Virus record (IMG/VR): IMGVR_UViG_3300042376_001602
Coordinates: 1-42,306 of that record
Reading direction: 5' to 3' (one strand)
Length of the DNA stretch: 42,306 bases
Origin: a virus
Part shown: positions 1 through 42,306 of the stretch, piece by piece
Layout of the letters: each line of letters opens with the position of its first letter
Numbering within the stretch: the stretch's first letter is position 1
Notes under the pieces: model-generated
The model's database searches: none
What the model was told of the DNA's origin: nothing
The model's input: only the letters and a program-made list of their open reading frames with translations
Made by a program: the position numbers and the translations under genes

Positions 1-99
1 TAGGGCGAGGCCGGTGTAGAGTTTATGGGGGAAATTTTGCGTCCGTCCGCTGGGTTGTTTTCGACGGGGGCTGAGGGTGATTCGTGAAGTTGCTTTCAT
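1..99 (-). CDS. Partial copy of the leftward gene that crosses the circular junction
   Basis: The first 33 codons of the 76-residue gene annotated in full at 41998-42228, repeated here because of the terminal redundancy. It starts at the ATG read from base 99 and runs off the left edge. This copy has Ser at residue 17 where the other has Cys. On the circular genome there is only one such gene. Confidence 0.6.
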   Translation of the reverse strand, partial: MKATSRITLSPRRKQPSGRTQNFPHKLYTGLAL

Positions 100-105
100 G
101 GTTCG

Positions 106-131
106 GTGCCGGAAGCCGTCCGGCGCGGGTT
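106..131. promoter_or_regulatory. Hairpin leader element, copy A
   Basis: A 26-bp element with a 6-bp stem (gccgga / tccggc) and a short loop, starting 6 bp upstream of the leftward start codon at 99. A copy with one mismatch lies at 2420-2445, 8 bp upstream of another leftward start. The same position relative to two separate starts suggests a shared leader, operator or translational control element. Its function is not known. Confidence 0.5.
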
Positions 132-167
132 GAATTTTTATGGATTTTCGAGGCCATCCGCTTTGTT

Positions 168-335
168 TTATTCCGGCTCGGGGGTAGTTACCGGCTGGCC
201 GTCCACCAGGGCGGGGAGGATTTCGGCGTCGTCCTGGGCGAGCTGAGCCTCGGTGGTGTGGCCGGGCTGGAGGTCGAGACGATGAAGCGCCGCCTCCATC
301 GAGGAGGCGGCGCGGGTGAGTTGGTCGGGGGTCAT
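168..335 (-). CDS. Hypothetical 55-residue acidic protein
   Basis: A short leftward gene. Its ATG (335-333) overlaps the TGA of the gene before it in the ATGA arrangement shared by the rest of this operon, and that is the main reason to call it. The product is acidic, begins MTPDQLTRAASSMEAAL, has a helical first half and ends in a Pro/Glu tail (TTPEPE). There is no signal peptide or membrane segment. It is the last gene of the 2411-to-168 leftward operon. I do not recognise the family. Confidence 0.6.
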   Translation of the reverse strand: MTPDQLTRAASSMEAALHRLDLQPGHTTEAQLAQDDAEILPALVDGQPVTTPEPE

Positions 336-4133: not shown

Positions 4134-5036
4134 ATGCCGGACCCTGCCGCCGATCCGGCTTTTTTTTGTGCCCAAAATTCTCATGGGGTGAATACCCCAT
4201 TGCAGGCCGTGGAGGCTGCCGCCCTCGCCGCGCCTTTTCTTTTTTCTGAGGAGGAAATCGGGGCTGAGAGATTAGAGGCAACTGGAGAGTTCAGCGGGGA
4301 GCGGCTACTGACTCGGAGGCCGGAGGTTTATCGGGCCATTTGCCGGATGAGTGCCGAGGGATTGAGCATGTCGGCCATGGCTCGGGCGCTTGGGGTGAGC
4401 CGTAACACGGTGGCGGCTGTCCAAGAGCGTGAGGGAATTTCTATAGAGCAGCATAAAAAAGAGTTACTGCGCAATGTGCGCACGGCTGCCCGGCTGTCGG
4501 TCGAGCGGGTCGTTGAGTTGGTGCCTTCGATCACCAACGCCAAGGATGCGGCGATTGTTGCGGCTGTCATGGTGGACAAGCTCCAACTCTTGAGCGGCGA
4601 GGCCACCGCCCGGGTCGAGCGGGTCGAGGTTAGCCAGGACAAGCTCGCCGAGATGCTGGCCTCGCTGCCGGTCCTCGAGGCCGAGGTGCTGCCGCTAACC
4701 GGTCCAAGCGACGCCGCGCCGGAACAAAAGGGGACCGCTGCCCTGCCCGCCGATGCTGCCGGATTGGCTGGCTCTGATTCGTTATCAGATGTTTTGCCCT
4801 CCTTTACAGATAGAGGCGAGGCGATGTCTGCCACTTTGTCCGCCACTTCGCCCCACGCCGCCGGTGCCGAGCCGGTCGAGGCCGAGGCCGGGCTGGTCGA
4901 TCAGGAGGGGGGGGAGGGGGTCGCGGATTTTGCACCCCCCCCATCACAACCCACTGGTTTGGGTTCACAGAAAATTTTTGACAAAGGGGTCTCGTCTGCC
5001 CCGCAGGACGCTTCGGATTCATCAACCCTACCATGA
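4134..5036 (+). CDS. Helix-turn-helix protein with a long disordered tail
   Basis: Residues about 60-105 (EVYRAICRMSAEGLSMSAMA, RALGVSRNTVAAVQ) form a clear HTH like those of Hin-type or transposase-type DNA-binding domains. A helical segment to about residue 165 follows (ARLSVERVVELV, AAIVAAVMVDKLQLLSGEAT). The remainder is rich in Ala, Asp, Pro and Ser and probably disordered. The ATG at 4134 is used, but the 16-bp inverted repeat at 4184 lies within the first codons, so the true start may be TTG 4200 or GTG 4209. Options are an early regulator or a terminase small subunit, though it lies about 5 kb from the large subunit. Confidence 0.6.
   Translation: MPDPAADPAFFCAQNSHGVNTPLQAVEAAALAAPFLFSEEEIGAERLEATGEFSGERLLTRRPEVYRAICRMSAEGLSMSAMARALGVSRNTVAAVQEREGISIEQHKKELLRNVRTAARLSVERVVELVPSITNAKDAAIVAAVMVDKLQLLSGEATARVERVEVSQDKLAEMLASLPVLEAEVLPLTGPSDAAPEQKGTAALPADAAGLAGSDSLSDVLPSFTDRGEAMSATLSATSPHAAGAEPVEAEAGLVDQEGGEGVADFAPPPSQPTGLGSQKIFDKGVSSAPQDASDSSTLP
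4184..4199. promoter_or_regulatory. 16-bp inverted repeat, copy 2
   Basis: TGGGGTGAATACCCCA, identical to 3475-3490 except one central base. It lies 50 bp into the HTH gene as called, so either the gene starts later or the element acts inside the coding region. Two copies about 710 bp apart, both near starts of rightward genes, fit a shared operator. Confidence 0.55.
4826..4849. repeat. Two tandem 12-bp repeats resembling the attP arm sites
   Basis: GTCTGCCACTTT followed directly by GTCCGCCACTTC. Each differs by one base from the GTCCGCCACTTT sites that flank attP at 41514-41769, and the 12-bp spacing is also the same. They lie inside the HTH gene, where they encode SATLSATS. Confidence 0.5.
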
Positions 5037-40400: not shown

Positions 40401-40419
40401 ACTCTACAAAGCCCGCTAA
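34435..40419 (+). CDS. Giant ejection polyprotein with zincin and LPD38-like domains
   Basis: 1,994 residues, the longest gene. Residues 1-45 hold three 15-residue units starting F-D-P-[ST]-T-A-V-L (Phe3, a degenerate one at 18, Phe33); a fourth is at Phe505. Next come a Gly/Ala-rich membrane-like part (residues about 160-225) and disordered linkers. A zinc metalloprotease motif HEIGH (His955-His959) follows, with SAEELYADAISV (Glu1085) about 126 residues on as likely third ligand. From about 1,480 to 1,700 the sequence (IRYNPAFQLFMSPARDLQRS, VPFLNIFLRSYDSLQRNLRG) resembles LPD38-type domains of large polyvalent phage proteins, followed by one hydrophobic segment (about 1,694-1,713). It is probably packaged and injected with the DNA, with protease action on the cell envelope or on itself. 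Confidence 0.8.
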   Translation: MSFDPSTAVLIEDEPADFEAASAVPVEEEPMGFDPTTAVLVEDELALPSATPSPVPTPNPELDAARDAGMREDQLIREEGIFPEGSQSWKVLDGRIYIDPARYNSAVENLWSAGVIDSDSYTQLQKGTVDQWDEASRTVIPSVEKATAARRDLERRAGAFPEAKAAASGLLKGAMQTGAAIVGGGAVATATGFTGPGAIAVGIGAGTAAALGTGAAYDKLLELSSKESDLLDSFYAANQLKPGYNTGGQLVSILAPTPVSISRLANAANLIQAEKGSAAAAKFVTGAFGAGAGIGVATDATIQVGNLGLDKLLHQDISKEVAMEHFRQTGEQLAPRPQYNPASTGISAIFGGLGAGLGVKARNKTYAPEELVTLESQVKTGRATRQEAEDYRVMRQAVDTLRADDRLIDAQAIRRATVDAAGFRFLDTTEIINPRFQRELLAYAAENPAAAVPLSGSPAAYTGQAFINRGGPAPAFQGGTNALPGPEGVPALPGPAAEPSNILPFDPTTATLVDDIPPTASAPAASAPTAPELTGSPEMIAGEGATPSPPAKPKRKFPRISYDPGTFPILSALQESPMRPSSSGTAGGENDFWNEIRRTGRHFAETHRSTGQPYDVRAQELFERGLLPDPSPDTLFNAYMSEVNSYRQIKDGDPTEAEQNKIQKQYDTFTKQALDPSKTKKSKLQPVTTSDLKIGDRVKIADEWLNVKAIDPETFTISLEDGAKFGLQKVEDGTQMWVQETEISPSQDDGFSFLNETDTAPAAPPQAEPFSGNLFTPGEMPFSLDRPLDDDSLKLQREADEANRQQAAEEEAQKSQTNMAFADAGPPAKSSRGGKTMADAGPPAPLLSTTATLPKPPLETYNDAQVFADFPDAVGVVRSSKGSGWTMPLILGGTDKVPVMEMPELVEMVRSLTGNDPKLKRMPKAFGTFNPSSGIITLRPDLFQNEASAMMTFAHEIGHLVSWMDERNIKLGNLGGHIMNVGNYLKSTFPITPGAGPALTTADRRKLQAQAKSENPSDPDARTARYRELVQQTMDTRNLGAVSEKQGGYSPNIREELINLSEWWKPFNYDDAKDSYVDYRHSAEELYADAISVLFNSPADLQARAPVFYKAFWNYADARPQVKASIFEIQNRILMGRDAVLDKRLARDLESFKAGAEVFVGKQAAAAERRASLTGWWENLKDQYWNRYQPLIESAAKARAAGTITKAEEDGIRWLTEEHPLADSKLQLKLADIGRLYQSLDAAGVPRDYFGVWLKHHRIANERYEVTEKIKGMDLTVEKGRAVMANPGGETARTSAEMLASLQQRLGPEKTAALESAVAGFRDVVFTIMEDANDAGLFSADLWEIISANRDNYAAFTPLEYVQEYLPSAIRKQVGTFKEIADPLQQTVLKSISIHRAAQNNRFKRAAVEAIRQTAPELVKPAPMKYNGKAMVPQESQETGLSLVQWKDDGQLTGVHLPDRYARMWEDQSPAERDAILKLLSTGFQRLVYGAIIRYNPAFQLFMSPARDLQRSITNMPGGIQGRARFLQRLLDPETWGASVEWARGDIGKTELLREMIENAATGGPHSAFGGRMGSDDDSLDAILRKYHLQDQQSRNGFVRALMAPLKGIEFAGQVLQLLPKAAAYKVLVKDTGIPAPQAANTIRNHIGIPNYYKKGRHAQAAGALVPFLNIFLRSYDSLQRNLRGAERNMGGKEWWLAWALTGGGLIAVMQTLAKEGLFGEDLKKLYSRVPTWDMTNFAVLPLGEVPTGETGGKTVYARLPQDEGLRVINGVVSKMLTSAIRSAKGDPTAPQLGEVFAGISSQVPGTNTIVELGQNWTTFLAGRNPRDDFRNRYILSDDQWLAGGWEATKPMLGWTLEQTGITNFFTYDPKADTLTETTLSAAPILNRFIKISDRGVYQSEAKADEADKRDMAKVRLSLPDQVNGLRTEYNYLKNRGENRSDRETLRYYELGQWYRTYRQAMDGVETNMEFGNRAAAQSAIRGLVQDSKLYKAR

Positions 40420-41510
40420 AGCGGCTTCGGCCTTTCCAGCAGGGCGTGGTAGTGCTTCTCGACGACATCCATCGAGTCGCGCAGCAGCTTTGCCGCAACC
40501 TCCAGGCCGTCCCGCTGGGCGATCCGGCTGCCGTATTCCTTCCGCAAATTATAGGCTCCCTTCGCGCCATCGGGGATGAAGCGCCGCACAAATTCGTTGA
40601 TGCCATCGTGCGTCAGGTCGTCGGCCTCGGTCTTGTGAGCGCGGGGGATCACATACTCGCCCTCGCCAAGCGCGGCCTGGATCAACCGCAAAAGGCGGAG
40701 ATTCGCAGGCACTCGGCCATACTTTCCATTTTTGCTGTGAAAGTCGGGGCGCTTGATGAGAACCAAATCGACGCCGCGCTTGTTGGGAAGCCAATCCACC
40801 CAATCCCACCGCAGCTTGGCCACCTCGGAGTTTCGCAACCCCGCCCGCCGCATGAGCCAATAAATCGCCCACACGCGAGGATCTTTCCGCCGCAGGGGAA
40901 TCCTCGCCGCCGCATCCATCCGCCGCAGGATGTCGCGGGGAATCGGCTCGTAGCTTTGATCCTGGGCTTTTCCGCCAGAGACTTTCCAAAACTCCGTCAA
41001 ATCCGGCAGCGTCAAATCCGCGAAGAGATGCATCCGCCGCTGGGCCACCACTTGCTTGACCGTCTGCACACTCGACCGCACGCCCGCCTCGGTGCAGCCC
41101 GACGCCAGCCGCGCCGTGATCCAACCTCGCAAGACCGGAGCCGTGAGAACCAAATGAGAAGACACGCCGCGCCAATCCGCCTTGCCGCTGGCCTCGGCGA
41201 CATACTTGGCAAAGCCGCTCGCAGCCTTCACCGCCGATCCGCCAGGGCCGTGGAGCTTGAACCGGTCCACGATCTCCCCAGCCGTGGCATAGCCTGGACG
41301 CCGGACGACCTTCGCCAGCTCCTCCTCGTTGCCTGAGCGCAATCCCTCGGAAATCTTTTTAGCCTTCGCCTCCGCCGCCGCCCGCCCGGCTTTGTTGTTG
41401 ATCGAAACCCCCGTCGCCTTCTCGACTCGCTTGCCGTCAAGCTGCACGCGGTAATACCAGCCATTGCGTGATTCTTTCCAGTAAACCGAAATCTCGTTGT
41501 GTTTTCTCAT
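40416..41510 (-). CDS. int: Tyrosine integrase
   Basis: The start is the ATG at 41510 (MRKHNEISVYWKE). A GTG further upstream would translate the repeats beside attP and is rejected. 364 residues: an N-terminal arm-binding domain (RNGWYYRVQLDGKRVEKATG), a SAM-like core-binding domain, and a catalytic domain with AGLRNSEVAKL (box I Arg), RPDFHSKNGKYGRVP (Lys), YNLRKEYGS (box II Arg, with Asn where His is usual), LLRDSMDVVEKHYHAL (catalytic Tyr; Asp where the second His is usual). It catalyses recombination between attP and a host tRNA gene. Its stop overlaps the stop of the convergent giant gene. Confidence 0.9.
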   Translation of the reverse strand: MRKHNEISVYWKESRNGWYYRVQLDGKRVEKATGVSINNKAGRAAAEAKAKKISEGLRSGNEEELAKVVRRPGYATAGEIVDRFKLHGPGGSAVKAASGFAKYVAEASGKADWRGVSSHLVLTAPVLRGWITARLASGCTEAGVRSSVQTVKQVVAQRRMHLFADLTLPDLTEFWKVSGGKAQDQSYEPIPRDILRRMDAAARIPLRRKDPRVWAIYWLMRRAGLRNSEVAKLRWDWVDWLPNKRGVDLVLIKRPDFHSKNGKYGRVPANLRLLRLIQAALGEGEYVIPRAHKTEADDLTHDGINEFVRRFIPDGAKGAYNLRKEYGSRIAQRDGLEVAAKLLRDSMDVVEKHYHALLERPKPL

Positions 41511-41513
41511 AGG

Positions 41514-41549
41514 GTCGCCACTTTTGTCCGCCACTTTGTCCACCACTTC
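41514..41549. repeat. attP arm-type repeats, left cluster (three copies)
   Basis: GTCGCCACTTT (41514), GTCCGCCACTTT (41526) and GTCCACCACTTC (41538), spaced 12 bp. With the copies at 41636 and 41746-41769 they flank the tRNA-like core on both sides, as arm-binding sites of tyrosine integrases do. They lie immediately before the integrase start. Confidence 0.65.
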
Positions 41550-41635
41550 AATGTGAAATTCTTTAGATGGGGTAAACGCATTAGACAGTCAAAAGCTGGA
41601 AGTTTCTGACAATTTGCCTAGGGAAACCGAAGATG

Positions 41636-41646
41636 GTCGCCACTTT
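41636..41646. repeat. attP arm-type repeat, single copy
   Basis: GTCGCCACTTT, identical to 41514-41524, 16 bp from the tRNA-like core. Confidence 0.6.
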
Positions 41647-41662
41647 GAGGGGGTGAGGGGAA

Positions 41663-41704
41663 TGCAGCCGGAAAGACTCGAACTTTCAACCTTCTGATCC
41701 GTAG
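41663..41704 (-). other. attP core: 3' half of tRNA-Arg(ACG)
   Basis: Read leftward this is a tRNA from the anticodon loop to the discriminator: loop CTACGGA (anticodon ACG), stem half TCAGA, variable AGGTT, T arm GAAAG-TTCGAGT-CTTTC, acceptor half CGGCTGC and A. The bases beyond 41704 do not continue into a 5' half (the matching stem half TCTGA and acceptor GCAGCCG are absent), so it is not a working tRNA. A phage-carried 3' tRNA half beside an integrase is the standard attP core that restores the host tRNA on insertion. The predicted host gene has acceptor GCAGCCG/CGGCTGC. Confidence 0.8.
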
Positions 41705-41745: not shown

Positions 41746-41769
41746 GTCCGCCACTTTGGTCGCCACTTT
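41746..41769. repeat. attP arm-type repeats, right cluster (two copies)
   Basis: GTCCGCCACTTT (41746) and GTCGCCACTTT (41759), spaced 13 bp, on the far side of the core from the integrase. The last bases touch the stop codon of the leftward gene at 41768. Confidence 0.65.
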
Positions 41770-42001: not shown

Positions 42002-42228
42002 TGTGTGGTTGGATATTTGATTAGGATTGTCTCGGCGTTTTCGATGGCGAGAACAAGAAACTGGATGTTGATTTTTGTGGCAATGGGGTTCTCGATCTCT
42101 TGGGTGACGCGTTTGGCGGAGTCGGTGAGTAGGGCGAGGCCGGTGTAGAGTTTATGGGGGAAATTTTGCGTCCGTCCGCAGGGTTGTTTTCGACGGGGGC
42201 TGAGGGTGATTCGTGAAGTTGCTTTCAT
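41998..42228 (-). CDS. Hypothetical 76-residue protein crossing the circular junction
   Basis: The full copy of the gene whose start is repeated at 1-99. Start at the ATG at 42228, 6 bp below the hairpin leader element (copy at 42235-42260, the redundant form of 106-131). The N-terminus is basic (SRITLSPRRKQP), the middle helical (TGLALLTDSAKRVTQEI), and the end hydrophobic (INIQFLVLAIENAETILI). No family is recognised. Its stop overlaps the next start. Confidence 0.6.
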   Translation of the reverse strand: MKATSRITLSPRRKQPCGRTQNFPHKLYTGLALLTDSAKRVTQEIENPIATKINIQFLVLAIENAETILIKYPTTQ

Positions 42229-42306
42229 GGTTCGGTGCCGGAAGCCGTCCGGCGCGGGTTGAATTTTTATGGATTTTCGAGGCCATCCGCTTTGTTTTAT
42301 TCCGGC
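42130..42306. repeat. Terminal direct repeat, right copy
   Basis: Repeats 1-177 with one substitution (a at 42180 for t at 51). On a circular map this stretch is counted once. It includes another copy of the hairpin leader element (42235-42260). Confidence 0.9.

Follow-up and report, generated by a model that had tools for sequence, protein, structure and literature searches.

What is a piece of an arginine tRNA doing beside the integrase gene of a virus? In the window (the whole 42,306-nt stretch of viral DNA analyzed here), the minus strand at positions 41663–41704 carries 42 nt of a tRNA-Arg(ACG), running from nt 32 to the discriminator A73 and lying ~150 nt upstream of a tyrosine integrase gene. 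Integration at a tRNA gene by means of a half-gene copy that spares the host gene is a textbook mechanism. We conclude, with a probability of roughly 93%, that this site serves as the attP of a temperate phage whose genome of ~42.1 kb maps circularly, that the phage infects Spartobacteria/Terrimicrobium-like Verrucomicrobiota, and that its integrase (Int) exchanges strands at the host tRNA-Arg(ACG).

The original prediction held that the anticodon loop, variable region, T arm and acceptor half all fit this tRNA and that the 5' half is missing, and a part-by-part reading bears this out. The minus strand reads, in order, CTACGGA (anticodon loop, with the anticodon ACG), TCAGA (3' strand of the anticodon stem), AGGTT (variable region), GAAAG-TTCGAGT-CTTTC (T arm, as stem-loop-stem), CGGCTGC (acceptor positions 66–72) and the discriminator A, while ARAGORN calls no whole tRNA anywhere in the 42,306-nt stretch. 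The copy begins at nt 32, the first base of the anticodon loop, and the window and most of its relatives share one extra tRNA base, A31. Of 46 viral contigs that show the half-tRNA pattern, 45 have no tRNA 5' half. No CCA follows the discriminator (positions 41660–41662 in the window) in any of the 45 half-tRNA viral copies; it is absent from the window and from its 14 exact viral matches.

When 84,980 bacterial and archaeal species genomes were scanned for exact copies, the 42-mer turned up in eight contigs from six genomes, all of them Verrucomicrobiota, and a match of 42 bases cannot be chance. The six genomes are MAGs: one from Spartobacteria, one from Terrimicrobiaceae, two labelled 'Verrucomicrobiaceae' and two from Lake Pavin. 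At five loci (L002, L004, L007, L008 and L009), ARAGORN calls the enclosing gene as tRNA-Arg(ACG), so that the tag proposed for the host, acceptor CGGCTGC with discriminator A, is indeed carried by candidate host genes as part of the exact 3' half. Two details of the prediction require adjustment, namely the extra shared base A31 and the treatment of CCA, which most of the matching host genes encode (TGG before TGCAGCC on the plus strand) and the phage copy does not. The likely hosts are therefore Verrucomicrobiota of the Spartobacteria/Terrimicrobium-like order, an assignment based on MAGs and on a single shared tRNA.

The adjoining tyrosine integrase (40416–41510, minus strand) comprises 364 residues from an ATG at 41510. 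Its ORF (40416–41546, minus strand) is open back to a GTG at 41546, and the ATG is the likely start because the alignment with relatives becomes conserved from there. The protein matches the PHROG integrase profile phrog_1 (E=6.4e-15) and, weakly, Pfam PF00589 (E=9.4e-4, 19.4 bits, below the 27.1 cut-off). Alignment identifies the catalytic R (AGLRNSE), K, box II R and Y (HYHAL) and places two departures from the canonical catalytic set: the box II H is replaced by Y (YNLR) in the relatives shown, and the second H is D (LLRDS) in the subgroup of the window and H (LLRHS/LLRHR) in L054, L055, L056 and L067.

Repeats of AAGTGGCGACC lie on both sides of the core, at offsets of −64, −52, +59, +156, +168 and +181. 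All are on the minus strand. The P' arm contains two in tandem, AAGTGGCGACC and AAGTGGCGGAC (41746–41769; offsets −64 and −52); the P arm contains a single repeat adjoining the core (41635–41646; offset +59) and three in tandem (41513–41549; offsets +156, +168 and +181) just upstream of the probable integrase ATG, where they are also in frame within the longer GTG-started ORF. Arm-type repeats occur at 11.3 per kb in the attP region versus 0.15 per kb elsewhere, a 76-fold enrichment. Most relatives, down to ~57% integrase identity, keep those at −63/−64 and −51/−52, and the others are also seen, slightly shifted; one group (L052, L053, L069, L071 and L073) lacks the AAGTGGCGACC motif and has AAAGTTGTCCCC-like repeats in its place. 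Two further arm-like repeats (GTCTGCCACTTTGTCCGCCACTTC) are found at 4826–4849, inside an ORF at 4134–5036, far from the attP. Judged by sequence and placement, the AAGTGGCGACC repeats would be the expected arm-type sites for Int binding. Core, integrase and two-sided arm repeats together make up a complete attP.

Close integrases are present in 36 viral loci, 35 of which include upstream DNA, and a profile search contributed eight more, giving 44 sequences including the window. Seven core alleles occur in this integrase clade. Their first 17 nt (loop, stem and variable region) are invariant, and the differences fall at acceptor position 66, the discriminator, one base of the T loop and the T stem. 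In all seven alleles every T-stem pair holds (35 of 35 cells, 100%), four of the five pairs show changes on both sides, and none of 500 shuffles reaches the covariation score. Five alleles are identical to tRNA-Arg(ACG) alleles of the same verrucomicrobial order (213 genomes; the hosts with matching alleles are G001–G006, G053, G086, G092/G096 and others, and G093). Alleles A0 and A1 have no exact host match in the 213 order genomes or in 388 phylum genomes. Every intact gene read has G-C or A-T at acceptor pair 7-66, implying that a core with C66 would be mismatched in an A7 host. On the integrase tree, we count at least ~12 changes of core allele among the 44 rows, a figure that is approximate because several branches are weakly supported.

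Such changes extend to phages with identical flanks (L047 and L049 are the same over 100 nt on each side of the core and differ by one compensatory T-stem pair), and they suggest capture of host tRNA alleles. We tentatively propose, at a little under even odds, that the attP core is a replaceable cassette that is overwritten with the tRNA-Arg allele of the lysogenized host lineage while the arms and integrase stay. In that case a phage would exchange its core as a block for a copy of the tRNA allele of its current host, for example when excision through recombination at the far (acceptor) ends of the two prophage repeats carries the host allele, without CCA, into the phage. Alternatively, the alleles may have diverged by point mutation under selection for T-stem pairing, or cores may have been exchanged between phages, with no contribution from the host. 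Compensatory pairs are the trace expected of selection for a working tRNA, and cores could be moved by phage-phage recombination. However, five of the seven alleles match a host exactly, an identity that pairing alone would neither force nor explain, since the phage copy contains both strands of the T stem. Furthermore, the L047 and L051 cores differ at nine positions within flanks that are 94 and 96% identical, and the L051 allele was found in no other phage yet is present in host G086. We therefore consider divergence by mutation or phage-phage exchange doubtful, but far from negligible.

A 177-bp direct repeat occupies both ends of the window (1–177 and 42130–42306, plus strand; 176 of 177 positions identical, one mismatch), and contigs of relatives run through the junction from window end to window start, with phage DNA continuing past both ends. 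The virus record is listed as linear; the terminal repeat and the junction-crossing contigs indicate a circularly mapping genome of ~42,129 bp that is effectively complete. On a circular map the site is an uninterrupted attP and not one half of an integrated prophage. The predicted gene content, which includes a major head protein (phrog_1328), a terminase large subunit (phrog_2), a DnaB-like helicase (phrog_19) and a weak tape-measure match, agrees with that of a tailed phage. The 42-mer might instead be the attR of an integrated provirus, in which case it would be the displaced half of the host gene and host DNA would follow it. Locally, a displaced 3' half would look no different, and only short ORFs lie to the right of the core. 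This reading is nevertheless very improbable, since arm repeats lie on both sides of the core, neither flank resembles the flanks of host tRNAs, and the circular map already refutes it.

The uninterrupted attP has counterparts throughout the clade. A tRNA-Arg(ACG) half lies upstream of int in 43 of 43 related integrases with readable upstream DNA (35/35 of the close set plus the eight from the profile search), and in all 43 relatives the break falls at the same base, always beside int and in most between arm repeats. Phages commonly carry tRNAs, and the half could in principle be the remnant of a phage-encoded tRNA gene that lost its 5' half and plays no role in integration. The shared breakpoint and its setting argue strongly against such a remnant, as do alleles that remain paired and in five cases match those of hosts, and we regard it as highly unlikely.

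Outside the attP clade of the window, a sister clade (L032, L145–L151, L153, L155, L156 and L159) has integrases 36–39% identical and a target switch: the 3' half upstream of int is that of tRNA-Lys(CTT). Its layout is the same, with the half-tRNA ~160–176 nt upstream of int and GGACCACTT-like repeats around the L032 site (half-tRNA region 2771–2813), but it differs from the window in its tRNA-Lys target and in the inclusion of CCA in some copies. Among other distant integrase relatives, a T-arm test found no half-tRNA. Two additional viral contigs, L195 (9352, plus strand) and L196 (3729, reverse complement), contain a tRNA-Arg(ACG) half with a closely related integrase absent from the examined part, and probably represent independent use of the same tRNA target. 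The examined parts of viral contigs with an intact tRNA-Arg(ACG) (L082 and L083) contain no convincing related integrase.

For integration at this attP, the tyrosine integrase would bind the tandem arm-type repeats on both sides together with core half-sites around the anticodon loop. Strand exchange with the host tRNA-Arg(ACG) would occur in or beside the invariant anticodon-loop segment CTACGGA (41698–41704, minus strand), the predicted strand-exchange region in which we infer the crossover. After insertion, the host would keep tRNA nt 1–31 and the phage would supply nt 32–73, restoring an intact tRNA-Arg next to int; the far end of the prophage would be marked by the displaced 3' half of the host gene. 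On the plus strand, the predicted attL consists of the P arm, the core and TCAGATGCTCTATCCAATTGAGCTACGGCTGC, and the predicted attR of the host 3' flank, the core and the P' arm. Because the phage copy lacks CCA, that of the rebuilt tRNA would presumably be added by the host CCA-adding enzyme.

We found no attL, attR or integrated close relative in the 213 order genomes, the 388 phylum genomes or the viral contigs; the nearest integrated relative is L032 in G095, whose integrase is 38% identical and which is associated with a tRNA-Lys half. The insertion site named in the original prediction is thus strongly predicted from the host match, the adjoining integrase, the arm repeats and conservation across the clade, but integration was not directly seen. 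Likewise, a search for prophages at this tRNA found none of this integrase family, but other elements have left half-copies there. These 3'-half copies, in G002, G003, G055 and G207, end on the same base as the phage core or beside it, which suggests that elements use the tRNA-Arg(ACG) site in these hosts. A crude motif scan detected no integrases near host tRNA sites.

In G207 (L087, positions 1079 and 6179, minus strand), an intact tRNA-Arg(ACG) and a 3'-half copy are 5.1 kb apart, and the interval is a small element inserted at the same site; similar half-copies are seen in L092, L093 and L095. Host tRNAs with GCTGCACTC (G197, G198, G205 and G207–G209) were considered as sites occupied by this phage, a reading with some appeal because the flanks of many relatives likewise begin CTCCCC. 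It was rejected because the similarity of the flanks stops within a few bases and a related integrase is absent there. The Verrucomicrobia and prophage literature yielded nothing on these phages.

The attP belongs to a known class, the anticodon-loop, tRNA-restoring sites of tyrosine integrases. The Islander collection places 2083 of 3919 islands at anticodon-centred sites versus 1836 at the T-stem region (PMC4383910). As in its sublocation 'A' islands and phages, the attP of the window carries the 3' tDNA half from the anticodon loop, so that the gene would be made whole again on integration (PMC4383910); unlike them, it has a likely Verrucomicrobiota host, does not include CCA and is known here from attP alone. 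Common cores of 30–45 bp that rebuild the host tRNA are typical of mycobacteriophage Int-Y systems, which the window resembles, by attP layout, in core length (42 bp), use of a tRNA 3' half and flanking arm-type sites (PMC10865867). Its hosts differ from theirs, and here a single integrase clade has several core alleles. In tRNA-dependent lysogeny, too, a tyrosine integrase uses a tRNA target, but there the common core is ~10 bp long and the phage encodes a tRNA gene (PMC10865867), against a 42-bp core and no ARAGORN-called tRNA in the window, which leaves that mode a very small probability.

Beyond the original prediction, the analysis points to a host order, describes a complete attP, shows that the genome maps circularly and brings out the swapping of alleles. 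For a metagenomic phage clade of at least 44 members that otherwise lacks an assigned host, it provides a likely host order and a predicted insertion site, and it suggests that attP half-tRNA alleles may resolve hosts below the order level. If the core is indeed a replaceable cassette, attP alleles would register the recent lysogenic hosts of these phages and so offer a cheap record of recent lysogeny.
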